A DNA stretch of 22,500 bases, from contig JAJYUJ010000039.1 of NCBI GenBank assembly GCA_021792615.1, positions 1 to 22,500 of the forward strand, read 5' to 3'. Position numbers and translations under genes: made by a program. This stretch comes from a bacterium (GTDB lineage: Bacteria > JAMCPX01). The notes beneath the pieces are model-generated. The model was not told the DNA's origin, did no database searches, and saw nothing but the letters and a program-made list of their open reading frames with translations. Shown piece after piece: positions 2,456 to 22,394 of the stretch (positions are counted from its first letter, which is position 1; every line of letters starts with the position of its first letter).

Positions 2456-3196
2456 TCAATTATCAACATTATCGTAACCGCACAGCTTGTCCGTATCCAT
2501 CAACGACGGATCGACCGGTACATTTATGCGTGCCTGTCTATAATGTATGGTAAGTCTGTTTTTCCCCCATGTGCAGGTCACACGCATCGGAAGCCTCACC
2601 CCGTCAATCATGGTAAAATGCCTATAGGTGCAGGCTACTGCATCTCCATGATCGCTTCCTACTTTTGTAGCTTTGAGAACCAGATCGTCATCTACCTCTG
2701 AAGACCAGCTCCGTTTATCGATTGTTCCTTGCAGCATACTGCCTCTGCTTGTAGAAACTATTTTTTCGGGTTGGGCGATAAGCCGTGCTGTTATAAGATC
2801 CTCAAATATACCGGGACTTACATCGATATGCGTGTATTGCTGCAGAAGGCTTGACGAAGATATTCCGCATGCACCGGTGCCGGTATCCAATACTGCAACC
2901 GTGCCGTTATAAACGATAATAAGCACCGGCTGATAGAATAGGTTCAGTGTTTCAAGGCGTATTGCCGTACCGCTCATGATGATCCCCTCCGGGAATTCCG
3001 ATCCCCTGTCATTAAGCCGTACGCTGACCGATGCAAGCGCTTTCATGCTGGCCAGGGGTCGGGAGTTTTTGTTCATTGCATCCAGCAACGAGGATACACT
3101 GCGGTACGGTGTTGGTTTTACCGTGTATGCGCATCCCGGGAAAAGAATTATGAGGATGAGCAGAGTATTTTTGATGCTAATCTTACTTCGCTCCAA
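2456..3196 (-). CDS. Lipoprotein with LolA/LolB-like (DUF4292-type) fold
   Basis: This is a predicted outer-membrane lipoprotein of 246 residues. A hydrophobic stretch is followed by the lipobox FPGC (Cys22). The rest reads like the half-barrel LolA/LolB/DUF4292 superfamily: an early stretch (SMKALASVSVRL), a strand pair around SGTAIRLETLNLFYQP, then alternating strands to TIHYRQARINVPVD. Proteins of this group carry lipid or lipoprotein cargo. The start is TTG at 3196, inside the last codons of the TPR lipoprotein gene (14-base overlap), so translation is probably coupled. No in-frame ATG precedes the lipobox. Pairing of a TPR lipoprotein with a LolB-like lipoprotein suggests a joint role in outer-membrane assembly. 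The fold assignment is by pattern only. Confidence 0.65.
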   Translation of the reverse strand: MERSKISIKNTLLILIILFPGCAYTVKPTPYRSVSSLLDAMNKNSRPLASMKALASVSVRLNDRGSEFPEGIIMSGTAIRLETLNLFYQPVLIIVYNGTVAVLDTGTGACGISSSSLLQQYTHIDVSPGIFEDLITARLIAQPEKIVSTSRGSMLQGTIDKRSWSSEVDDDLVLKATKVGSDHGDAVACTYRHFTMIDGVRLPMRVTCTWGKNRLTIHYRQARINVPVDPSLMDTDKLCGYDNVDN

Positions 3197-5748: not shown

Positions 5749-7032
5749 TTATTGAATGCTCACAAATGCCCGCATGCCGGGATAGACCGCCCTTTTCCCG
5801 AGCTCGTATTCGATCTCGAGCAGCCGGTTGTATTTTGCAACACGCTCTCCCCGGGCGGGTGCACCTGTTTTTATGAAACCGGTATTCGCAGCCACCGCAA
5901 GGTCCGCTATGGTGGTATCGTCCGTTTCCCCGGATCGGTGGGATATTACCGCTGTCCAGCCATTTGATCGTACCATCCTTATTGCCTCCATGGTCTCGGT
6001 AAGCGTGCCGATCTGGTTCAGCTTGATCAGAACCGAGTTCGCGGCATCCATTTCCAATGCTTTTTGTATGTACTTCGTATTGGTGACCGTAAGGTCGTCT
6101 GCAACGAGCTGTACTTTTGAGCCGAGCCTTTCTTTCAAAAGTACCCAGCCGTTCCAATCGTTCTCGGCAAGCCCGTCTTCGATACTGATAAGAGGGTAAG
6201 CCTTTACAAGACTCTCATAAAGAGAGATCATCTGCTCTGAACTGAGCTTTCTTCCTTCATCCTTGAGATTGTATTTGCCGTTGCTATAGAATTCGCTGGA
6301 AGCAGGGTCTATGGCAAGGTAAATGTCCTTACCCGGCTTGTAGCCTGCTTTTTCGATCGCCTTAAAAAGGAGCTGCAATGGCTCTTCGTTGTTTTTAAGG
6401 TCCGGTGCAAAACCGCCTTCATCACCGACAGAGGTTGCGAGCGATTTCTCTTTGAGGATTGATTTCAGCGTATGATAAACCTCCGCGGATGCCCTCAATG
6501 CTTCTTTCAATGACGGCAATCCGGCAGGCACTATCATGTATTCCTGAAAATCAACATTGGTGTCCGCATGCTTGCCGCCGTTCAGCACATTCAACAGGGG
6601 AACGGGGACCACCGGCGTATCGATACCCCCTATGTATTTGTAAAGGGGCATATTCAGCGCCTTTGCACTGGCGTGTGCAGCAGCAAGAGATACGGCAAGT
6701 ATTGCGTTTGCACCGAACTTTGACTTTGTCCCGGTCCCATCGAGTTCTATCAGCTTTTTATCTATGGCCCTCTGGTCGAAAGGCTCCATCCCTTTTATGG
6801 CCGGCTTTATTATGTCCTTGATATTGCCGATGACCTTCAAAACGCCCTTACCCTGATAGCGTTTTTTGTCTCCGTCACGCAGTTCGAGTGCCTCCCGTTC
6901 TCCGGTTGACGCACCCGACGGCACCTTTGCGGTTGCAAATACACCGTTATCGAGCTTCAACGTTACCTCCACGGTCGGATTACCGCGGGAATCCAGTATC
7001 TCCAGCGCCAGTACATCTTCTATTTTTGCCAT
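5749..7032 (-). CDS. eno: Enolase
   Basis: This is the glycolytic enzyme that interconverts 2-phosphoglycerate and phosphoenolpyruvate in the cytoplasm. It has 427 residues, normal for bacterial enolases. Visible signatures are [25 protein letters not shown], the metal-binding [11 protein letters not shown] and [10 protein letters not shown], the catalytic-lysine segment LIKLNQIGT, and the family signature region ending in [17 protein letters not shown]. The start is placed at ATG 7032 (MAKIEDV), with GGAGG 6 bases upstream; upstream in-frame Met codons would add an unconserved 24-residue leader. It lies 75 bases downstream of the mlaD-like gene. That gap holds a small hairpin and the palindrome AAAAATTAATTTTT, so enolase may have partly independent expression. 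The SDR gene follows at once. Confidence 0.98.
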
Positions 7033-7107
7033 GGAAACCTCCATAAAAATTAATTTTTCAATACATTTTTCTTGCATGAAGCCGAAAGGACTTTCTTCCG
7101 GCAATGC

Positions 7108-8586
7108 TTATTTCGTGTTGACGTATGTCGTACTTGCGGCAAGCCCGAATATGCTCTTCAGATCCTGATCATCGAACTTCAAACCTACCCCCATAAACCA
7201 CGTCCTGGCATCCCTGTTCGCAATGTCCGTCATACCCCCCGAAAGGAGGAAGTACCTTAATATGGATATACTCAGCATGGCTTTCAATTCGGGGTACGGT
7301 TTCTCGTTGAAATTAAACATCTCGACACTCAACTGTGCGTCGTCATTGGGTGCGTTTATATCAACACCGATACCACCGCTCGATTCTATGACGCCTCCGC
7401 GAAACGTGAAGTAGGATATTCGTTTTGCAATCTCTGCATTTATCTTAAGCTGATTCGATATATTATTGCTCACGGTCTGTGTTTGCTGGATTGTACCGGT
7501 ATTGACGTTTTTTACCGTCGTATAGGTTGTTGAAGTGGAAGAGTAGCCTCCGGGATCGTCAACGATGCCCAGCAGGTAATACTTGTCCCATGTCGGCTGG
7601 AGCCTCAGATCAAGGTAGCTTTTCACATTGTGATAAGCGAATTGATACTCGCCGCGGTAACTGATAATGGTCCTGAACCTCGATGTGCCGCCGACCATGG
7701 AACTCAATCCGCTTATGGCCTTGGTCACCTGCTGTTCTGTTTTTTTGTCCGAGAGCAGCTTTCCTATGGCCCCTTTGCCCTCTTTCAGATTACCCGTTAT
7801 CACCTCAAGATTTGCGAGTGTCTTATCAAGCTTTTCGCTTGCCTGGTTTATATTTTTCATTGTCCTGTTTACGGATTGTTTGTTCTCGGCGATAATAGCA
7901 TGGAGTTCCCCGGAGATCTGTGCCAGATTCGCCAGGATATCGGGCCCCTGTTCTTTTAAGGCCTGTGCAAACGTATTGACCGAATCAAACGTCTGGTTGA
8001 GGTTTTTATTGGTACTGGTTATAAGACGGTCCATGTGGGTAATTGTCCTGTTGAGATTATCGAACATACCCCTGATATTGTTTTCGCCTTTCGAGCCCCC
8101 GAATACATCGTTGAGACTCTGGGTTACCGATTTTACATCACTGGCAATGCCGTTCAGTTTGTTCATGAGTTCTTCGAGATCAGGAGGAGACTCGGTAAAA
8201 ATAATCTGTTCCCCGGGTTTAAGGGCCGCGGCTTGCTGCTTTCCCGGTACAATCTCGATGTATTTCTCTCCGAGTAGTCCCTTTGTCCGTATAACTGCTT
8301 TTGCATTGTCTTCGATCTTCACACCGGGCATTATCCGTAATGTGACAAGCGCCTTGTCATCCTCCAGCTTAATATCCTCGACATAGCCTACCTTTATACC
8401 GGCAATAAAAACACCGGTCTTCGTGTTCAGTCCCTGTGCATTATCAAACTCTGCGGTCAGTGTGTATCCCTGGAGCCTGCCGAATATGGTACCGCTGCTT
8501 ATTTTGAACGTAATCCAGAAGAGGAGCAGAAGGACGATGACTACGAATATACCAACCCTGGCATTTGTCGAAATACCTTTATTCAT
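7108..8586 (-). CDS. mlaD: MCE/MlaD-type lipid-transport protein with a beta-rich, barrel-like C-terminal domain
   Basis: This 492-residue protein is about three times the length of Escherichia coli MlaD. Residues 11-28 form one membrane anchor. Residues 40-115 are a canonical MCE domain (FDNAQGLNTKTGVFIAGIKVG through KYIEIVPG). Residues 130-295 are helical and heptad-rich. Residues 300-492 are a series of alternating amphipathic strands (RTIISYRGEYQFAY, YPELKAMLSISILRYFLLSGG, TWFMGVGLKFDDQ) resembling an outer-membrane barrel. In the family, MCE rings move phospholipid between membranes with the MlaE/MlaF transporter encoded just upstream. The stop of mlaF and this ATG are one base apart, with GAGG six bases before the ATG. 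The C-terminal domain may anchor the complex at the outer membrane directly (inference); no mlaC, mlaB or mlaA is visible in the window. Confidence 0.9.
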   Translation of the reverse strand: MNKGISTNARVGIFVVIVLLLLFWITFKISSGTIFGRLQGYTLTAEFDNAQGLNTKTGVFIAGIKVGYVEDIKLEDDKALVTLRIMPGVKIEDNAKAVIRTKGLLGEKYIEIVPGKQQAAALKPGEQIIFTESPPDLEELMNKLNGIASDVKSVTQSLNDVFGGSKGENNIRGMFDNLNRTITHMDRLITSTNKNLNQTFDSVNTFAQALKEQGPDILANLAQISGELHAIIAENKQSVNRTMKNINQASEKLDKTLANLEVITGNLKEGKGAIGKLLSDKKTEQQVTKAISGLSSMVGGTSRFRTIISYRGEYQFAYHNVKSYLDLRLQPTWDKYYLLGIVDDPGGYSSTSTTYTTVKNVNTGTIQQTQTVSNNISNQLKINAEIAKRISYFTFRGGVIESSGGIGVDINAPNDDAQLSVEMFNFNEKPYPELKAMLSISILRYFLLSGGMTDIANRDARTWFMGVGLKFDDQDLKSIFGLAASTTYVNTK

Positions 8587-8587
8587 A

Positions 8588-9340
8588 CTATGCCTCTACC
8601 TGCAACGGGCCTTCTGCCCTTCTCTCCAGAAATTGCCTGACAATCGGATCCTGTGTGTTTCTGAAATCATCAGGACTACCATATAAAACAACTTTGCCTT
8701 TGTAAAGCATTGCTATCCATCGGGCTATCTTGAAGGTACCCGGTATATCATGGCTTATAACGATGCTGGTCACGCCGAGGCGTTTTTGTGTGTTCAAAAT
8801 AAGGTTGTCTATCGTATCGCTCATGACCGGATCAAGACCTGTCGTGGGTTCATCAAAGATAAGCACCTGGGGATCAAGGGCTATTGCCCGCGCAAGGCCG
8901 ACGCGTTTTTTCATGCCGCCGCTCAATTCCGCAGGGTAAAGCTGTTCAACACCTTTCAGTCCTACTATGGCCAGCTTTTCCCGGACAACGTCCATAATCT
9001 TTGACGGGGAAAGTCCGGTATGTTCTCTCAGGGGGAAAGCGACATTCTCGCCGACGGTCATTGAATCGAATAATGCCGAGTTCTGAAACAACACGCCGAA
9101 GTTCTTGATAATACCGCCAAATTCTTTGCGCTTTAATTTTGTAATGTCCGCGCCGTTTACGATAATCTGCCCGGCATCAGGCCGCAACAGTCCTATGATG
9201 TGCTTGATAAGCACGCTTTTTCCGCAACCGGTCTGACCGACGATGACCGTGGTTTTGCCGTCCTCTATCGTAAGGTCTATGCCGTTCAGCACACTATTCG
9301 TACCGAATGATTTTTTTAGCCCTTTAATATCTATCTGCAT
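8588..9340 (-). CDS. mlaF: ABC transporter ATPase, MlaF type
   Basis: This is the cytoplasmic ATPase of the MCE lipid transporter, 250 residues from ATG 9340. It has Walker A GQTGCGKS (35-42), Q-loop region LFQNSALFDSMTVGENV, the signature LSGGMKKRV that is typical of MlaF rather than generic ABC proteins, Walker B LIFDEPTTGLDP, and the H-loop SHDI. The stop of mlaE lies two bases before this ATG. A TTG at 9346 overlapping that stop by four bases is an alternative start. There is no clear ribosome binding site, which fits translational coupling to mlaE. It is expected to power lipid movement through the MlaE permease and the MlaD-type ring. Confidence 0.95.
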   Translation of the reverse strand: MQIDIKGLKKSFGTNSVLNGIDLTIEDGKTTVIVGQTGCGKSVLIKHIIGLLRPDAGQIIVNGADITKLKRKEFGGIIKNFGVLFQNSALFDSMTVGENVAFPLREHTGLSPSKIMDVVREKLAIVGLKGVEQLYPAELSGGMKKRVGLARAIALDPQVLIFDEPTTGLDPVMSDTIDNLILNTQKRLGVTSIVISHDIPGTFKIARWIAMLYKGKVVLYGSPDDFRNTQDPIVRQFLERRAEGPLQVEA

Positions 9341-9342
9341 AA

Positions 9343-10125
9343 TCAAAACAAGAGCGCGGTCAAAAAATAGTCCGCTATCAGTATGGATACCGAGGAAATG
9401 ACTACAGCCTGTGTTGCCGCCTTGCCGACACCCTCAGCTCCCTTTTCCGCAAAATATCCCTTATAGCATCCAACAACTGCTATAATGGCTCCAAACACTG
9501 CCGCCTTCAAAAGGCCTATGTATACATCTTTGAGGTCCACCATATAAATGGTATCGTTTATAAAGCGGTTACCATTGAGACCGAGAAAGAACACAGCCAT
9601 AAAATAACTTCCGATGATACCGATAAAATCAAACAATATCGTCAGCATTGGAAGCATGATGATCGATGATAAAACGCGCGGCGTTATCAGATACTGGACC
9701 GGGTTTATACTCATGGTATAAAGGGCATCTATCTGTTCTGTTACCTTCATCGTTCCAAGTTCCGCTGCCATCGCAGAGCCGACCCTGCCGGTTACCATAA
9801 GCCCGGTGAGGACAGGACCAAGCTCCCGCGCCAGTGACAGTGCTACGGACGGTCCTATGAGGTTTTCCGCACCGAACAACCTGAATGCATACGATGTCTG
9901 GAGTGCAAACACCATGCCGGTAAACGCGCCGGTAAGCAATACTATAAAACTTGATTCGACACCGATAAACTCCATCTGCTTTAAAAAAAGCCTCATTCTG
10001 AAAGGTGGCACAAACAACAGTCCGGCGGACTGGAGGAAGGTCGAGAATATACCGCCCAATTCTTCAAGGAGCGTGGTAAATCTTGCGCCTATATACTCAA
10101 ATATGGCTATCGGCCTGAATGTCAT
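9343..10125 (-). CDS. mlaE: MlaE-family ABC transporter permease
   Basis: This is an inner-membrane permease of 260 residues, the family's usual size, with several hydrophobic segments. Family-typical stretches are GAFTGMVFALQTSYAFRLFGAENLIG, ARELGPVLTGLMVTGRVGSAMAAELGTMKVTEQIDAL and the closing SILIADYFLTALL. It forms the membrane core between MlaF and the MCE protein. The start is set at ATG 10125, one base after the alr stop; a start at 10176 would overlap alr by about 50 bases and add unconserved residues. AAGGAT lies about 11 bases upstream. It is the first gene of the E-F-D trio and is continuous with alr. Confidence 0.95.
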   Translation of the reverse strand: MTFRPIAIFEYIGARFTTLLEELGGIFSTFLQSAGLLFVPPFRMRLFLKQMEFIGVESSFIVLLTGAFTGMVFALQTSYAFRLFGAENLIGPSVALSLARELGPVLTGLMVTGRVGSAMAAELGTMKVTEQIDALYTMSINPVQYLITPRVLSSIIMLPMLTILFDFIGIIGSYFMAVFFLGLNGNRFINDTIYMVDLKDVYIGLLKAAVFGAIIAVVGCYKGYFAEKGAEGVGKAATQAVVISSVSILIADYFLTALLF

Positions 10126-10126
10126 A

Positions 10127-11215
10127 TTATTCGTAGATCCTTTTGAGACTTGAACCCATACTGCACAATAACTCATAACTTATTGTCGAAGCAAGCGATG
10201 CGATTTGATCCGCACCTATATACATGGAGCCGTCTTTCCCTATAATAAGCACCTTATCACCAACGCGGGCATGTATGCCCTTCATATCTATCATGGTATG
10301 GTTCATCGTCACCCTTCCGACAACGTATACCTTTTTACCCTTTATGCCAACAAATCCTGTATTGGAAAGCATGCGCGAATATCCATCGGCATAGCCAACC
10401 GGCAGAACCCCCACTACCGTATCCTTTTTCAGCCTGTACGTTCTCCCATAACTGATGGCGTACCCCTTTTTCAGAGCCTTAACAGAGATGAGTTTTGAGA
10501 AAACATGCATCACCGGCGTCAAGCCTTTCCTGCCATAGCCATAGAGGCTTATCCCTGCTCTCACCATGTCAAAACAGGATTCGGGGTAATTGAAGAATGT
10601 ATCCGTATTTGCCGCATGGGAGATCAACCGCCGGGACAGCCTTGATTCAAGGAACCCCTGTACCTTTTGAAACCGCTTTATCTGGACCTTCGTAAAATAT
10701 GCAGAATCATGCGCATCGGATATATGTGTGGCGACACCGGTAATATTGAGATTTTTTGTTTTTTCGAGAACACGGTTCAGGGCGGCCATATCATCATACA
10801 AAAATCCCAGTCTTCCCATACCGGTATCAATCTTCAGATGTATGTTCCTCCGTACGTTTCTTTTTCTTGATTCCCTGTCAAGCAGCTCAACCTGGCCTGC
10901 ACTATACACGAGCGGGACAAGGTTATGGTCAATCAACATATCTTCTTCCCCCGGCTGGAAACCCGAGAGAACATAGATTGGAGACGATATACCTGCCTGC
11001 CTCAGAACCACCCCTTCCTGAATAAATGCTACGCCAAACCCATCAACACCTGCCCTTTCCAATGCTGTTGAAACAGCGACGATACCGTGTCCGTAGGCAT
11101 CCGACTTTACGACGGCCATAACGGCGGTGCCTTTCCGGATGCTTTTTTTTATCGAGGTTAGATTACGGACCAAGCCCTTCAGATCAATGCGCGCGTAGGT
11201 GTACGGGTTGTTCAT
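10127..11215 (-). CDS. alr: Alanine racemase
   Basis: This is a PLP enzyme making D-alanine for peptidoglycan, 362 residues. The PLP-binding lysine is Lys37 in AVVKSDAYGHG. The second catalytic base is Tyr256 in ISYGRTY, followed by the conserved VLPVGYADGYSR. RVTMNHTMID and the C-terminal TISYELLCSMGSSLKRIY are also typical. The start is ATG 11215, which overlaps the stop of the EnvC-like gene in the arrangement ATGA; a GTG at 11230 is less likely. Its position directly between a septal-amidase activator and the lipid transporter genes ties cell-wall precursor supply to envelope construction in one transcript. Confidence 0.97.
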   Translation of the reverse strand: MNNPYTYARIDLKGLVRNLTSIKKSIRKGTAVMAVVKSDAYGHGIVAVSTALERAGVDGFGVAFIQEGVVLRQAGISSPIYVLSGFQPGEEDMLIDHNLVPLVYSAGQVELLDRESRKRNVRRNIHLKIDTGMGRLGFLYDDMAALNRVLEKTKNLNITGVATHISDAHDSAYFTKVQIKRFQKVQGFLESRLSRRLISHAANTDTFFNYPESCFDMVRAGISLYGYGRKGLTPVMHVFSKLISVKALKKGYAISYGRTYRLKKDTVVGVLPVGYADGYSRMLSNTGFVGIKGKKVYVVGRVTMNHTMIDMKGIHARVGDKVLIIGKDGSMYIGADQIASLASTISYELLCSMGSSLKRIYE

Positions 11216-12333
11216 CGTGAAGTCAACCACTCTTCCGGGTTGAGGGGCTTTTCGCCGTGCCGTATTTCGAAGTAAAGGGTTTTTTCCCTGCCGAGTCCGG
11301 CGTCTCCTACCTTGCCTATCGATTGACCTGCTTTGACCTCATCGCCAATTTTTGCATCGGTATCTCCCACATGAGCGTATATGGTAAAATACCGGTCCCC
11401 GTGATCGAGAATGATGGTATTCCCATAGCCCTTCAGCCATTCAGACCACACAACCACACCCGGGTAAACTGCTTTTATAGGCACATCCGACTGCACGACA
11501 AATAAAACACCTTTTGCATTGATAATGCTGTCTGTCGATTTACCGAAAATTCTTTCTAATCTCCCCCGTACCGGGAAAGGCAGTTTTCCTTCCATCGATG
11601 CAAACCCTGTTTTTAGACCCGATGTACCCTCCAGAGATTTCAGCGTATGCTGCAACTTTTCCTCCGACACCTGCAACTCGATCAATACCTTTCTCGTTGC
11701 CTGCGTGCTGCGCCTGATGTTTGCAAGCATCAGGGTCTTCTGCATTCTTGTACGCATAAGGTCTGCCCTTTGCTTATTGAGATTATCCGTTACCGTATCA
11801 AGCCGGGATTTTTGCTCTGCGTATTTTTTTTTCTCTACGACAAGAGACTCCGCTTCTGCCCGGTATTCCTTCTCCTCCTTCTCATCATGCCGGATTATAT
11901 ACCCCATTAAGGTATACCGCTTCTCCATATCAACGGGAGAATCCGAGGCGAGCATGAGTTGAAGATACCCTGTTTGCTGCAATTTAAAACTTGCGACCAG
12001 TCGCTTGCCGATAATATTTTTTTTGGCCGATATGCTTGCGTTGATGGAGGCGATCTTGTTTTGCGTTGTGTTGATTTCTTTTGTAAGGTTTGTTTTTTCC
12101 ATATTCAGTGCGCCTATCCTGGATTCAATCCCGGCGTTCTGCTTGTCTATGGAATCAATTTCGTTCAGTATTGCCCAGGCCTTCTGTTTGGAGATTTTTA
12201 TCTCTTCTCTTTTTTCTTTTATAGATCTTTTTATTTCGTTTAACCGGTTTTTTACCGGGTGCCTTTCTGATTTGCAGTACCCGGAGATTGGGACAAGAAC
12301 CAAGAGTATTACGGTCAAAAGGATTTTTCCCAT
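11212..12333 (-). CDS. envC: EnvC-like murein hydrolase activator (degenerate LytM/M23 domain)
   Basis: This exported protein of 373 residues has a signal peptide at 1-20, a long coiled coil at about 25-240 (KEKREEIKISKQKAWAILNE onward) and a LytM/M23 domain at about 255-373. The zinc-binding residues are gone: the place of the H-x-x-x-D motif reads NAKGV and that of H-x-H reads TLYFE. The related M23 gene at 13577 keeps them all. Catalytically dead LytM proteins with this coiled-coil layout activate cell-wall amidases during division, so this is most likely an EnvC-type activator. The start is ATG 12333, with TTG 12348 as an alternative; neither has a good ribosome binding site. No amidase gene is in view. 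Confidence 0.85.
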   Translation of the reverse strand: MGKILLTVILLVLVPISGYCKSERHPVKNRLNEIKRSIKEKREEIKISKQKAWAILNEIDSIDKQNAGIESRIGALNMEKTNLTKEINTTQNKIASINASISAKKNIIGKRLVASFKLQQTGYLQLMLASDSPVDMEKRYTLMGYIIRHDEKEEKEYRAEAESLVVEKKKYAEQKSRLDTVTDNLNKQRADLMRTRMQKTLMLANIRRSTQATRKVLIELQVSEEKLQHTLKSLEGTSGLKTGFASMEGKLPFPVRGRLERIFGKSTDSIINAKGVLFVVQSDVPIKAVYPGVVVWSEWLKGYGNTIILDHGDRYFTIYAHVGDTDAKIGDEVKAGQSIGKVGDAGLGREKTLYFEIRHGEKPLNPEEWLTSR

Positions 12334-12383
12334 ACGATTATAGAGCAATGCGGAATGGCTCGATCAAAAAAACAATCCTGTGG

Positions 12384-13576: not shown

Positions 13577-14503
13577 TTACTGGAAATTACCGACAAGGTA
13601 TCTCATGGGATTTACCGGAATACCGTTTATCCTTACCTCATAGTGTACGTGCGGGCCTGTTGAAAACCCCGTGTCGCCTACCAAACCTATCACCTGCCCG
13701 CGTTTTACTATCTCTCCGGCCTTGACCTTTATCTTGCTCATGTGCCCGTACAGGGTGGTGATACCATATCCATGATCTATGATCACCGTGTTGCCGTACC
13801 CGGTTTCCCATCCTGCATAGCTGACAATGCCGTTGCTTGGAGCTTTTATGGGATTGCCTAACTGCGTTGCAATGTCAATGCCCTCATGCATCTCTTTTCC
13901 GCCGGTAATCGGGTTGATACGCCAGCCGAAACCCGAGCTTATAAAACCTCTCACAGGCCATATCGAAGGGGTTGCAAGCAAGAGGTCCTTTTTATCGAGG
14001 ATATTCTCATAAACCTCCTGTAAACTCTTCTCTTCCATACCCGTCTTTGAAAGCAGATCGTTTATATCCATCTCCATTTTTTTGACCAGCATGTCTTTGC
14101 TGACTCCGGTCAGGGGAACGGGGTAGCCGCCTGTATCAATGGTAGGACCTCCAATACTGTAGGTGTTCTCTTTTTGAGAGGCTGCGTTTTCGATATTGGC
14201 AAGTATACGTATCTTCATATCGAACTGCTGAATGGATTCAAGCCGTGTTTGTAAGGTATGGATCTTGTTCGCAAAATCCATAATCTGGTTATTCTGCTCC
14301 ACAACAAGCTTGCGTGTGCTAAACAGCTCATGCCCCTGATATTGCTGATGTAAAAACTCATAGACAAGAAAGGTAAATACAAGAGCAAAGCTCGCGAGCA
14401 CCAGAATACCGGCCTTTATCATATTCGAGCTTACGGATGCCCTTTTTGTCTTTTCTGTACCCTCGGGTACAATGATAAATGTAAATTTTTTATGTTTATT
14501 CAT
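13577..14503 (-). CDS. M23-family peptidoglycan endopeptidase, membrane anchored
   Basis: This 308-residue protein has a cytoplasmic N-terminus, one membrane segment (about 29-49), a helical linker to about 175, and a C-terminal LytM/M23 domain. The zinc and catalytic residues are all present: His206 and Asp210 in MHEGIDI, and His285 and His287 in PHVHYEV. It should therefore be an active peptidoglycan cross-link hydrolase in the periplasm. GAGG lies 8 bases before the ATG. It has its own promoter and an operator-like palindrome upstream, unlike most genes here. Its domain is homologous to the degenerate LytM domain of the EnvC-like gene two genes downstream, so enzyme and likely activator are encoded close together. 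Confidence 0.92.
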   Translation of the reverse strand: MNKHKKFTFIIVPEGTEKTKRASVSSNMIKAGILVLASFALVFTFLVYEFLHQQYQGHELFSTRKLVVEQNNQIMDFANKIHTLQTRLESIQQFDMKIRILANIENAASQKENTYSIGGPTIDTGGYPVPLTGVSKDMLVKKMEMDINDLLSKTGMEEKSLQEVYENILDKKDLLLATPSIWPVRGFISSGFGWRINPITGGKEMHEGIDIATQLGNPIKAPSNGIVSYAGWETGYGNTVIIDHGYGITTLYGHMSKIKVKAGEIVKRGQVIGLVGDTGFSTGPHVHYEVRINGIPVNPMRYLVGNFQ

Positions 14504-15358: not shown

Positions 15359-16222
15359 TTAGAAAAACGTATATCCAACACTGCCTTCCACGGACTGGAC
15401 ATCGAACACATGCACCTCAAAATTAAAGAACACGTACGGTGTGATAAACTGGTCGAGTCCGAATATACCGCCAAGGTTATACTTTGAGCTATAATTAAAA
15501 TTGGGATTTGTAAAGGAAAGGTCAACATTCGAGGCTTGCAGACCGCCATACGTAACGGTATTTAAATTTTTAAATGCCGCATAAACCGCACCGCTGTATT
15601 CGAAATTATTTACACTGCGCACGCCATTGCCGCTCTGGGTGTTGTGGACGTCCGCATTGATGTTGATGGTGAACCTGCTTCTATGGGGATCCGGCAGTGA
15701 TAACCTGAACCCTCCGCCAAAAGAGCCGCCGAGATAGCCCTTAAAATCCGGATCGGAAAGCCATATATCGCTAAACCCTCCGTCTGCATATATACTCAGC
15801 TGACTGACGATATTGTACCGTGCAACTATGGAAAATCCCTTGGAGGACATATCCGCATCCCCGCTGTCCGAAGAGGTAACCCTGCGCATCGTATAATCAA
15901 TGCCAAACCCAAGGGAAACATCGCCTGTTTTCTGTCCGACGGACATGGCGCCAATGGGGGTTGCGTATGCCCGATGCGGCAGACAGAGGATGGCAACAAG
16001 AGCGAAAGCCAAAACTATACCCCTCGCATTGAATTCCCGGCCCAAGCCCGGCCCGGGTGCCCCGCCCTTCTTAAACTTCTGCGTTATCCCTCTTACATAA
16101 GAGGGAATAAGGGAGTTACTTTTTTCTTTTATTTCAAAGAATACACCCTGTATATCTTTTCGATGCTTTCCTAACCTATGCCATGTTCCTTTCCCTGTTT
16201 GAATGTTGCGCATAAATTTCAT
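15359..16222 (-). CDS. Outer-membrane beta-barrel protein; N-terminus probably disrupted
   Basis: The C-terminal 215 or so residues after a signal-like core (IVLAFALVAILCLPHRAYA) are alternating strands with many Gly and aromatic residues (GDVSLGFGIDYTMRRV, QLSIYADGGFSDIWL) and end in VGYTFF. The terminal Phe fits the outer-membrane assembly signal. The function is unknown. From ATG 16222 (AGGGAG upstream) the frame carries about 65 odd basic residues before the signal core, through a hairpin and a G-rich repeat. An ATG at 16029 would give a normal signal peptide directly, MRG then the hydrophobic core, if the run of four Gs that follows had one more base. The annotated start is therefore doubtful, and the gene may be frameshifted. 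Confidence 0.6.
   Translation of the reverse strand: MKFMRNIQTGKGTWHRLGKHRKDIQGVFFEIKEKSNSLIPSYVRGITQKFKKGGAPGPGLGREFNARGIVLAFALVAILCLPHRAYATPIGAMSVGQKTGDVSLGFGIDYTMRRVTSSDSGDADMSSKGFSIVARYNIVSQLSIYADGGFSDIWLSDPDFKGYLGGSFGGGFRLSLPDPHRSRFTININADVHNTQSGNGVRSVNNFEYSGAVYAAFKNLNTVTYGGLQASNVDLSFTNPNFNYSSKYNLGGIFGLDQFITPYVFFNFEVHVFDVQSVEGSVGYTFF
16036..16067 (-). other. G-quadruplex-type motif upstream of the barrel gene
   Basis: The minus strand carries six runs of three or four Gs in 32 bases (plus-strand C-runs at 36-38, 41-43, 47-49, 52-54, 60-63 and 65-67 of the 16000 block), with spacers of 1-5 bases. This matches the usual G-quadruplex pattern and ends seven bases before the ATG at 16029. 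Confidence 0.6.
16087..16106. repeat. Perfect 9-bp-stem hairpin repeat
   Basis: TCCCTCTTA-CA-TAAGAGGGA is a perfect 20-base inverted repeat. It resembles widespread intergenic palindromes of environmental genomes. A related shorter copy lies at 16239-16257. Confidence 0.65.
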
Positions 16223-16238
16223 AACGCTCCCTGTCCCC

Positions 16239-16257
16239 CTCTTATCCTGAGTAAGAG
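16239..16257. repeat. Second, diverged copy of the CCTCTTA/TAAGAG hairpin
   Basis: CTCTTA and TAAGAG pair around a seven-base loop. It shares the core CCCTCTTA...TAAGAG with 16087-16106. The two copies bracket about 130 bases between the GH1 gene and the barrel gene. Confidence 0.45.
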
Positions 16258-16286
16258 ATTTAGTATTTGTAGCTGAAGGGCACATA

Positions 16287-18751: not shown

Positions 18752-20140
18752 TCAATGTTTTTTAAACGTAAACTTTACAGGCTCCACCCGCTGATTGTTG
18801 TAGTAAACCACATGAGTGACCGGATGGTCAATAATATTCAGCCACGGCTTCTCTTGCCCTGGTTTGTATCCTACGGGAACATAGATGTAGGATGTAAACG
18901 TATACGTTCCCTTCCTGGCTTTCATGAGATTGCCGAAGTCATAGCCGGTACTGCCAATTTGTCCGGGCTCATTCTCCGGGGGATCCGGCTTTGATTCGTC
19001 ATCGACAAAATAAAGGCCTTTGGTAAACGGAACATCCTTACCCATGACAACCCTGTTCATCCATGCCCCCTGGGGTCCTGAAACAACAGCCCAATCGTAC
19101 GGCGATCTGTTCAGGTCTTCCTGCGCCTTGCTCATCATGCCGGTGATCTTCAGGCCCCCGGGGTTGTTGGAATTGTAAAACTCCATACCGAGTGCGTTAT
19201 GATTGAAATCCGTCGTTGTAACGAGCCGCGCCTTTTTCACGATATAGAGCCGGCGGAGGTCTATGGGTATATCGACAACCGTGGGGAATTGAAAGAAATC
19301 ATAATAGTATGCGCTGTCGGACAAAACAGACGGAGACTGAATGCCGAGCATGATGTCCATGGAGTTCGCCACCCGTCGTATAACCCGTACAGGCCCCTGG
19401 ATGTATCCGACAAGCCTCGATTTAAAGTCATCTTCGTCCTTGTGTATGTTAAAGAGAACGGTATTGATATCAAGCCTCATTTTGAACCCGTCGAATATAT
19501 TGATGCCTTCACCGCCTGCTGATTTCGGCACGGCAAAATAATCGTAGGACAGCGGCGCTTTTTTTGAGAACGCCATGACATACAATTGTGCGGTTACCCG
19601 GTCGTCCCTGGGATCGTATTGTACATACCGCACAGGGGAAAGAGGGGGCGGGTTGTCCTTATAAGACATGAGATATACATAAGCATGTGTGTTGTTGAGG
19701 GGGTCCGTAAGCTCTATTTCCATGACGTCTGCTCCGGGCACGTTAAGCTGATCCGTGTTTGCCTTTTTTCCTGCGTCCTTTGCCATAAATACCAATTCAT
19801 CCTGTGGGGAAAGCGATGTCCTCTTGAGGGGCACGGGATTGCCGTGTTTGTCGTAATTAAAAATCCAGTCACCGTATTCGTCCCGCTCGTCGATCTGAAA
19901 CGGTATCGGTTGGAAAGGTGTGGACTGCAAGGACTCCCGCGCAAGCCCATGCTTTCCTTTTTCCCGGACCACCTTATACAACCTGAAATTCTGTATATTC
20001 CGACCGAGAAACGGGGCGATCGTTGTCCCCTGCAAAACAACAGGGTCAAACTGCCGGTTAAACCTATGTCCATCAGCATACGCCCGAACACCGGCAAACA
20101 CCATACTGCAAGCAACCAGCCAGAGAAGTGTTTTTTTCAT
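18752..20140 (-). CDS. Secreted protein of unknown function, 462 residues
   Basis: The protein has a clear signal peptide (MKKTLLWLVACSMVFAGVRAYA, cleaved after AYA). I recognise no family. Visible features are an early segment FQPIPFQIDERDEYGDWIF, SPQDELVFMAKDAG, PPPLSPVRYVQYDPRDDRVTA, and a C-terminal TYTFTSYIYVPVGYKPGQEKPWLN. Aromatic and Asp residues are abundant and the strand pattern suggests an all-beta periplasmic or surface protein. It has no transmembrane segment after the signal and no lipobox. The start is ATG 20140, with AAGGGG 5 bases upstream. It is followed by the START-like gene. A carbohydrate- or lipid-related role is only a guess from the neighbours. Confidence 0.85.
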   Translation of the reverse strand: MKKTLLWLVACSMVFAGVRAYADGHRFNRQFDPVVLQGTTIAPFLGRNIQNFRLYKVVREKGKHGLARESLQSTPFQPIPFQIDERDEYGDWIFNYDKHGNPVPLKRTSLSPQDELVFMAKDAGKKANTDQLNVPGADVMEIELTDPLNNTHAYVYLMSYKDNPPPLSPVRYVQYDPRDDRVTAQLYVMAFSKKAPLSYDYFAVPKSAGGEGINIFDGFKMRLDINTVLFNIHKDEDDFKSRLVGYIQGPVRVIRRVANSMDIMLGIQSPSVLSDSAYYYDFFQFPTVVDIPIDLRRLYIVKKARLVTTTDFNHNALGMEFYNSNNPGGLKITGMMSKAQEDLNRSPYDWAVVSGPQGAWMNRVVMGKDVPFTKGLYFVDDESKPDPPENEPGQIGSTGYDFGNLMKARKGTYTFTSYIYVPVGYKPGQEKPWLNIIDHPVTHVVYYNNQRVEPVKFTFKKH

Positions 20141-20244
20141 ATATACCCCTTGGATAAGAATCATTGTCCTTCACCATACACCAAAACTCGCGATTGAAAA
20201 ACAGAAAAAAATCGGGTGCGGATGCAGCATCCGGGTTTTTCCGC

Positions 20245-21674: not shown

Positions 21675-22394
21675 ATGAAAAAGTTACTCTTAGGGCTCAT
21701 ACTTTTGATACCGGTAATTTCCGTTCCTGTTCCGGCAATGGCAGGGGTGGATGTCAGTATCGGAATCTCTCTGCCGCCGCCGGTCGTATTCGGGGCGCCG
21801 CCGGATGTAGTGGTACTGCCGGATACGAACGATGTGTACGTTGTGCCGAATGTAGGAGTAGATTTATTCTTCTGGAACGGATGGTGGTGGCGTCCGTGGG
21901 AAGGCGGCTGGTATCGATCACGATATTATAACCGCGGCTGGATTTATTTTAACCGTGTACCGCGTTTCTACTATGACGTAGACCCGCGCTGGAGAGAATA
22001 CTACAGGGATCGAGATTGGCAGGGACACCCGTGGAACTATGAACGTATTCCCGACCGGGAACTGCAACGGAAGTGGAGAGGCTGGCACAACGACAGGTAT
22101 TGGGAACGGCAAAGGACATGGGGTGTGCGGGACTATCATCCCAGAGCTATACAGCAAAGGCGGGATATAAGATACCAAAGGCAGCAGGAGTACCAGAGAA
22201 GACCTGAGGTTATAAGACACCAGCAGTGGATACGGGAACACCCTGGACAGTACCATGGACAAAGGTATCAGCACCATCCGCAAGGACGCCCCTATGGCCC
22301 CCAGGGACAGAGATTCCAGCGCCCTGAGGAAAGACAATCCCATGGCCAGCAAAGACGCGAAGAAAAATTCAGGGGAAGGTCAGAAGGACGATAG
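21675..22394 (+). CDS. Exported Trp/Tyr/Arg/Gln-rich protein of unknown function
   Basis: This 239-residue protein has a signal peptide (MKKLLLGLILLIPVISVPVPAMA). Next comes a Val/Pro-rich part (GVDVSIGISLPPPVVFGAPPDVVVLP), then a very aromatic stretch with FFWNGWWWRPWEGGWY and YYNRGWIYF that recalls short W-G-W-type periplasmic proteins. From about residue 100 to the end it is basic and low in complexity: Arg, Gln, Tyr and His dominate (QQRRDIRYQRQQEYQRR). The tail is probably disordered and positively charged. A strong AAGGAGG lies 7 bases before the ATG, and promoter and terminator are both close, so it is a single-gene unit. Role unknown. Confidence 0.85.
   Translation: MKKLLLGLILLIPVISVPVPAMAGVDVSIGISLPPPVVFGAPPDVVVLPDTNDVYVVPNVGVDLFFWNGWWWRPWEGGWYRSRYYNRGWIYFNRVPRFYYDVDPRWREYYRDRDWQGHPWNYERIPDRELQRKWRGWHNDRYWERQRTWGVRDYHPRAIQQRRDIRYQRQQEYQRRPEVIRHQQWIREHPGQYHGQRYQHHPQGRPYGPQGQRFQRPEERQSHGQQRREEKFRGRSEGR

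Follow-up and report, generated by a model that had tools for sequence, protein, structure and literature searches.

The closest described system to the locus studied here is that of V. parvula, which has mlaEFD only, with neither MlaA nor MlaC (Grasekamp et al. 2023, PMC10665443). The MlaD of that organism contains a transmembrane (TM) helix, an MCE domain, ∼150 helical residues and a predicted ten-stranded C-terminal barrel, and the resulting transenvelope bridge was modelled at ∼23.5 nm. The separated domains of the protein fractionated with the inner and the outer membrane. In the same study, the C-terminal barrel was inferred in 103 sequences across diderm phyla, and the architecture was reported to be widespread.

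A locus of this kind was found in the window analysed here (the whole stretch of 22,500 nt of DNA). Its features, including the subdivisions of the gene that we call mlaD-long, were as follows.

10127..11230, minus strand: alr, alanine racemase, upstream of the cluster (TIGR00492 above cut-off); a neighbour conserved within the family
9343..10125, minus strand: mlaE, permease (MlaE, E 3.9e-84; TIGR00056 above cut-off)
8588..9346, minus strand: mlaF, ABC ATPase of 252 aa (ABC_tran, E 1.5e-33; best NCBIfam model PRK11831 MlaF, below cut-off)
7108..8586, minus strand: mlaD-long, 492 aa, an intact open reading frame with an ATG start
8242..8472, minus strand: MCE (MlaD) domain of mlaD-long, residues 39-115 (Pfam PF02470, E 3.6e-21, above cut-off)
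7696..8184, minus strand: helical region of mlaD-long, a putative needle, residues 135-297
7174..7683, minus strand: strand-rich C-terminal domain of mlaD-long, a putative outer-membrane barrel, residues 302-471, ∼10 strands
5749..7032, minus strand: eno, enolase, downstream of the cluster (TIGR01060), likely start ATG 7032

The genes followed one another on the minus strand in the order alr, mlaE, mlaF, mlaD, eno, so that mlaD-long adjoins genes for an MlaE permease and an MlaF ATPase, as in the MlaD family. The likely start of mlaE was the ATG at 10125, 1 nt past the alr stop, giving a product of 260 aa, the same length as in locus L001. The mlaE and mlaF frames overlapped by 4 nt, and only 1 nt separated the mlaF stop from the mlaD start. 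The three genes form one tight cluster and are probably cotranscribed; promoter and terminator scans gave results near chance level and were left out of account. The ATG of eno lay behind a GGAGG site, ∼75 nt after the mlaD stop. The longest enolase frame (5749-7104, minus strand) opened at an upstream TTG, the ATG at 7032 being the likelier true start.

Two M23 peptidases (11212-12348 and 13577-14503, minus strand), one of them EnvC-like, were encoded near alr and mlaEFD, and these genes together make up a small envelope-maintenance neighbourhood. The window also contained open frames of 239 to 470 aa with no Pfam or NCBIfam match, at 15359-16285, 18752-20164 and 2456-3196 on the minus strand and at 21675-22394 on the plus strand.

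The N terminus of mlaD-long carries a hydrophobic stretch (residues about 12 to 27) that corresponds to a single TM helix (residues about 7 to 29), and the MCE domain lies behind it, as is typical of MlaD and MCE family proteins. A preliminary description of this DNA had placed the MCE domain at residues 40 to 115, within one residue of the Pfam match. In NCBIfam, the protein scored just over the cut-off of the MCE family protein model TIGR00996 and under that of TIGR04430, the E. coli-type MlaD. A tail of 21 residues followed the strand-rich domain.

Comparison with V. parvula revealed the same essentials: mlaE, mlaF and mlaD lie together, MlaA and MlaC are absent, and MlaD combines a TM helix, one MCE domain, a long helical part and about ten strands. 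The two systems differ in the length of MlaD (492 aa in the window, 419 aa in V. parvula) and in the flanking genes, which are alr and eno here and tolC and tamB in V. parvula. They also differ in that the barrel fold was predicted with confidence for V. parvula MlaD, whereas that of mlaD-long is deduced from strand pattern and precedent. With the E. coli MlaFEDB-MlaC-MlaA system the locus shares MlaE, MlaF and the MCE domain, and the structures under PDB entries 6zy2 and 6xbd matched residues 10 to 143. However, E. coli MlaD, at 183 aa, lacks both needle and barrel, and E. coli requires MlaB, MlaC and MlaA, all absent from the genome that holds the window. An MCE ring extended by a helical needle is also found in mycobacterial Mce1 (PDB 8fed; profile match to 8fed_B over model positions 9 to 266) and in E. 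coli PqiB. In Mce1, however, the hexamer is heteromeric and its chains do not each carry a complete C-terminal barrel (PMC10665443), and PqiB has three MCE domains and the partners PqiA and PqiC. Brucella MpcD, for its part, is an MlaD that a long helical extension prolongs at the C terminus and for which a membrane bridge was proposed, but it has 331 aa, and the part of its published description available to us presents a series of helices, no barrel domain and a partner, MpcE, with a STAS domain (PMC12436622). Another solved Mce/MlaD protein, PDB 13hr_I (312 residues, 8 chains), matched the MCE and helical parts and may suit as a template for the needle.

The preliminary description had also divided the remainder of the protein into a helical and then a beta-rich part. 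Hydrophobic moments computed on an alignment of 12 diverse homologues, at 100 degrees for helix and 170 degrees for strand, bore this out, with a helix-type moment over residues 135 to 296 and a strand-type moment over residues 300 to 492. In the former region the helix moment was 1.32 and the beta moment 0.67, helix being dominant in 97% of the windows computed and beta in 3%. The helical region, residues 135 to 297, follows the MCE domain as the ∼150-residue helical region of V. parvula MlaD does, and it ends in a nearly invariant EGKGxIGKLL motif (G270, G272, G275 and L277) in the alignment of homologues. Pfam matches of this stretch to DUF6674, Mce4_CUP1 and ApoLp-III fell below the cut-offs and were discarded as likely coiled-coil bias.

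Close homologues aligned over the full length with 71 to 97% identity and kept the alr-mlaE-mlaF-mlaD order as far as their contigs reach, those of the same genus also having eno behind. Besides homologues in the window's own family, a search of 41 genomes yielded distant full-length homologues, with 23 to 39% identity, in several unrelated families; the whole architecture was kept, and these long mlaD genes adjoined mlaF, usually with mlaE visible behind. Since full-length homologues exist at both levels of identity and the complete domain order is found again in many genomes, a chance reading frame or a misassembled fusion can be ruled out. Identity to mlaD-long in the distant homologues was 24 to 41% in the C-terminal domain and 16 to 31% in the helical stretch; because the former is similar to or above the latter, the C-terminal domain is under selection and not a decaying tail. 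We regard mlaD-long as a genuine, conserved transenvelope-type MlaD of the published kind.

Two irregularities were observed among the close relatives. In G004, the MlaD at L002:5099-6676 was extended 34 residues past the usual C terminus, which may reflect a lost stop, a frameshift or an assembly effect. The genome G003, of the same genus, held two long mlaD genes, on G003:C57 and G003:C285 (97% and 66% identical to mlaD-long). Either true paralogy or contamination might explain the pair; the G003 MAG is 80% complete.

The host genome (2.54 Mb, 77 contigs, 99.55% complete) was screened family by family, E. coli and Caulobacter serving as positive controls, which were detected for PF05494 and PF04333. 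Neither in the window nor in the genome searched was a match found for MlaA (PF04333), MlaC (PF05494) or an STAS_2/MlaB-type protein. The earlier remark that no mlaA, mlaB or mlaC was visible in the window therefore holds, and mlaC and mlaA, whose presence elsewhere in the genome would have spoken against a bridge, were found nowhere in it. The genome thus lacks MlaA and MlaC, as in V. parvula, and does not have the MlaA, MlaB and MlaC of the six-component E. coli-type system. The MCE domain of mlaD-long was the only one in the genome, the genome search matching at the same place. The genome also carries two Omp85 (BamA/Omp85) proteins, TamB, two LolA-family proteins and LpxC; the presence of Omp85, TamB, LolA and LpxC marks the bacterium as a diderm of the LPS type, whose outer membrane needs lipid delivery. 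LolA marks a further difference from V. parvula, the Lol system being reported absent from Terrabacteria (PMC10665443).

With each family counted once, MlaA was present in 0 of the 10 families that carry the barrel domain, against 5 of the 16 that have an MCE match and no barrel (one-sided p 0.066). This avoidance between MlaA and the barrel domain is suggestive; the larger survey in the literature points the same way (PMC10665443). The genomes with MlaA and an MCE match carry short MlaDs, with open frames of 128 to 224 aa. An HMM of the C-terminal domain matched 18 of the 41 genomes, one of them (G021) through a weak match with internal stops. It had been asked beforehand whether homologues with the same fusion also lack mlaC and mlaA. 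For mlaA the answer was affirmative in the families counted; for mlaC it was not, because three genomes (G022, G035 and G040) hold both a barrel-type MlaD and, at another locus, an MlaC-family protein, without MlaA. Barrel and MlaC are thus not strictly exclusive. The MlaC of these three genomes may serve a different pathway.

We consider it quite probable that the locus encodes a minimal, three-component Mla phospholipid transporter that bridges the envelope of an LPS-bearing diderm. We infer the hexamer, the needle, the insertion of the barrels and the route and direction of the lipid as follows. By analogy with solved MlaD structures, six MlaD chains would assemble on the inner-membrane protein MlaE as an MCE ring. 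Their helices would come together as a hydrophobic needle that crosses the periplasm, and the ∼162 to 170 residues available would reach ∼24 to 25 nm if fully helical. The C-terminal domains, to judge from the strand pattern and from precedent, would be embedded in the outer membrane, either as barrels or as anchors that resemble them, and the needle would take the place of the MlaC shuttle and of the outer-membrane lipoprotein MlaA. The barrel would anchor or dock the needle, lipid entering or leaving beside it at the inner leaflet and not via its lumen.

A diverged MlaC/MlaA pair, missed by the family searches, might nevertheless act as partner of mlaD-long. Some distant barrel-bearing relatives do carry MlaC-family proteins elsewhere, and a small portion of the genome may be missing, but PF05494 and PF04333 drew a blank in the host and in all eight further members of its family that were sampled, whereas both controls, E. 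coli and Caulobacter, were positive. Such a pair is accordingly very improbable.

The nature of the C-terminal domain itself requires closer consideration. Over residues 300 to 492 of the 12-sequence alignment the strand moment was 0.91 and the helix moment 0.69, and the mean beta moment was reached in only 3 of 1,000 column shuffles. Ten candidate strands, whose boundaries were placed by eye on the alignment and are approximate, could be delimited (302-315, 321-331, 333-343, 376-389, 392-400, 402-410, 417-425, 431-441, 443-452 and 461-471), and about seven of them had one clearly hydrophobic face. The last one ends in GVGLKF in mlaD-long, and the pattern G-x-G-hydrophobic-x-[FL] was present in 11 of the 12 homologues, the exception being the most divergent; a tail of ∼20 residues followed it in most of them. 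This strand end resembles a BAM beta-signal. On single sequences, the strand score of the domain was similar to that of the two Omp85 barrels that the genome encodes. Soluble controls scored below it, by a small margin for some, and the Omp85 barrels overlapped some of them; as a result, strand alternation sets the domain clearly apart from the helical stretch and only modestly from some soluble proteins. The strand alternation, the ten candidate strands and the strand end are consistent with an outer-membrane barrel. Against it stands that searches of the domain in solved structures and Pfam gave no significant match, and the best one, AlkL (E 0.17), was too weak to be used as a structural lead.

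The domain could instead be a soluble, strand-rich periplasmic cap that touches the outer membrane or a partner without inserting. The modest separation from soluble proteins would fit such a cap. The AlphaFold2 predictions, which gave no confident fold on shallow alignments (mean pLDDT of 38 for the full length with 7 sequences of close homologues and 33 for the domain alone with 6), leave room for it as well, although the models carry no weight either way as regards a barrel. Nevertheless, the one hydrophobic and one polar face of most of the ten candidate strands and the beta-signal-like last strand argue for insertion, and in V. parvula the corresponding domain was recovered with the outer membrane on fractionation (PMC10665443), so that a cap seems improbable. 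Alternatively, inserted barrels might make up, or form part of, a conduit that takes lipid across the outer membrane, for instance by merging into a larger, TolC-like barrel. A hydrophobic needle that terminates in a barrel would hint at this, and barrel fusion was raised as a possibility by Grasekamp et al. (PMC10665443). In the judgement of the same authors, however, one predicted barrel is not wide enough for a phospholipid, and their AlphaFold results make a hexameric ring of barrels unlikely (PMC10665443); we regard a conduit as unlikely. Given the narrowness of the published barrel, we favour an anchoring or docking role, which would be no less likely than a conduit. In the most far-reaching version, which appears quite improbable, the six C-terminal domains would build one wide composite barrel through which phospholipid crosses to or from the outer leaflet; were it true, MlaEFD alone would carry lipid from the inner membrane to the cell surface or back.

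Returning to the three-component bridge, the suggestion in the preliminary description that one polypeptide could span the periplasm gains support from the anatomy of the protein and from the genome-wide absence of MlaA, MlaB and MlaC. The bridging itself is the model published for V. parvula; because the same architecture and the same proposal have already been described for that organism (PMC10665443), the idea is largely right but not new. The known picture is unchanged by mlaD-long, with the caution that barrel-type MlaD and MlaC are not strict alternatives in some distant genomes. The locus provides a well-supported further example of the three-gene Mla bridge, a form put forward as ancestral for the system.
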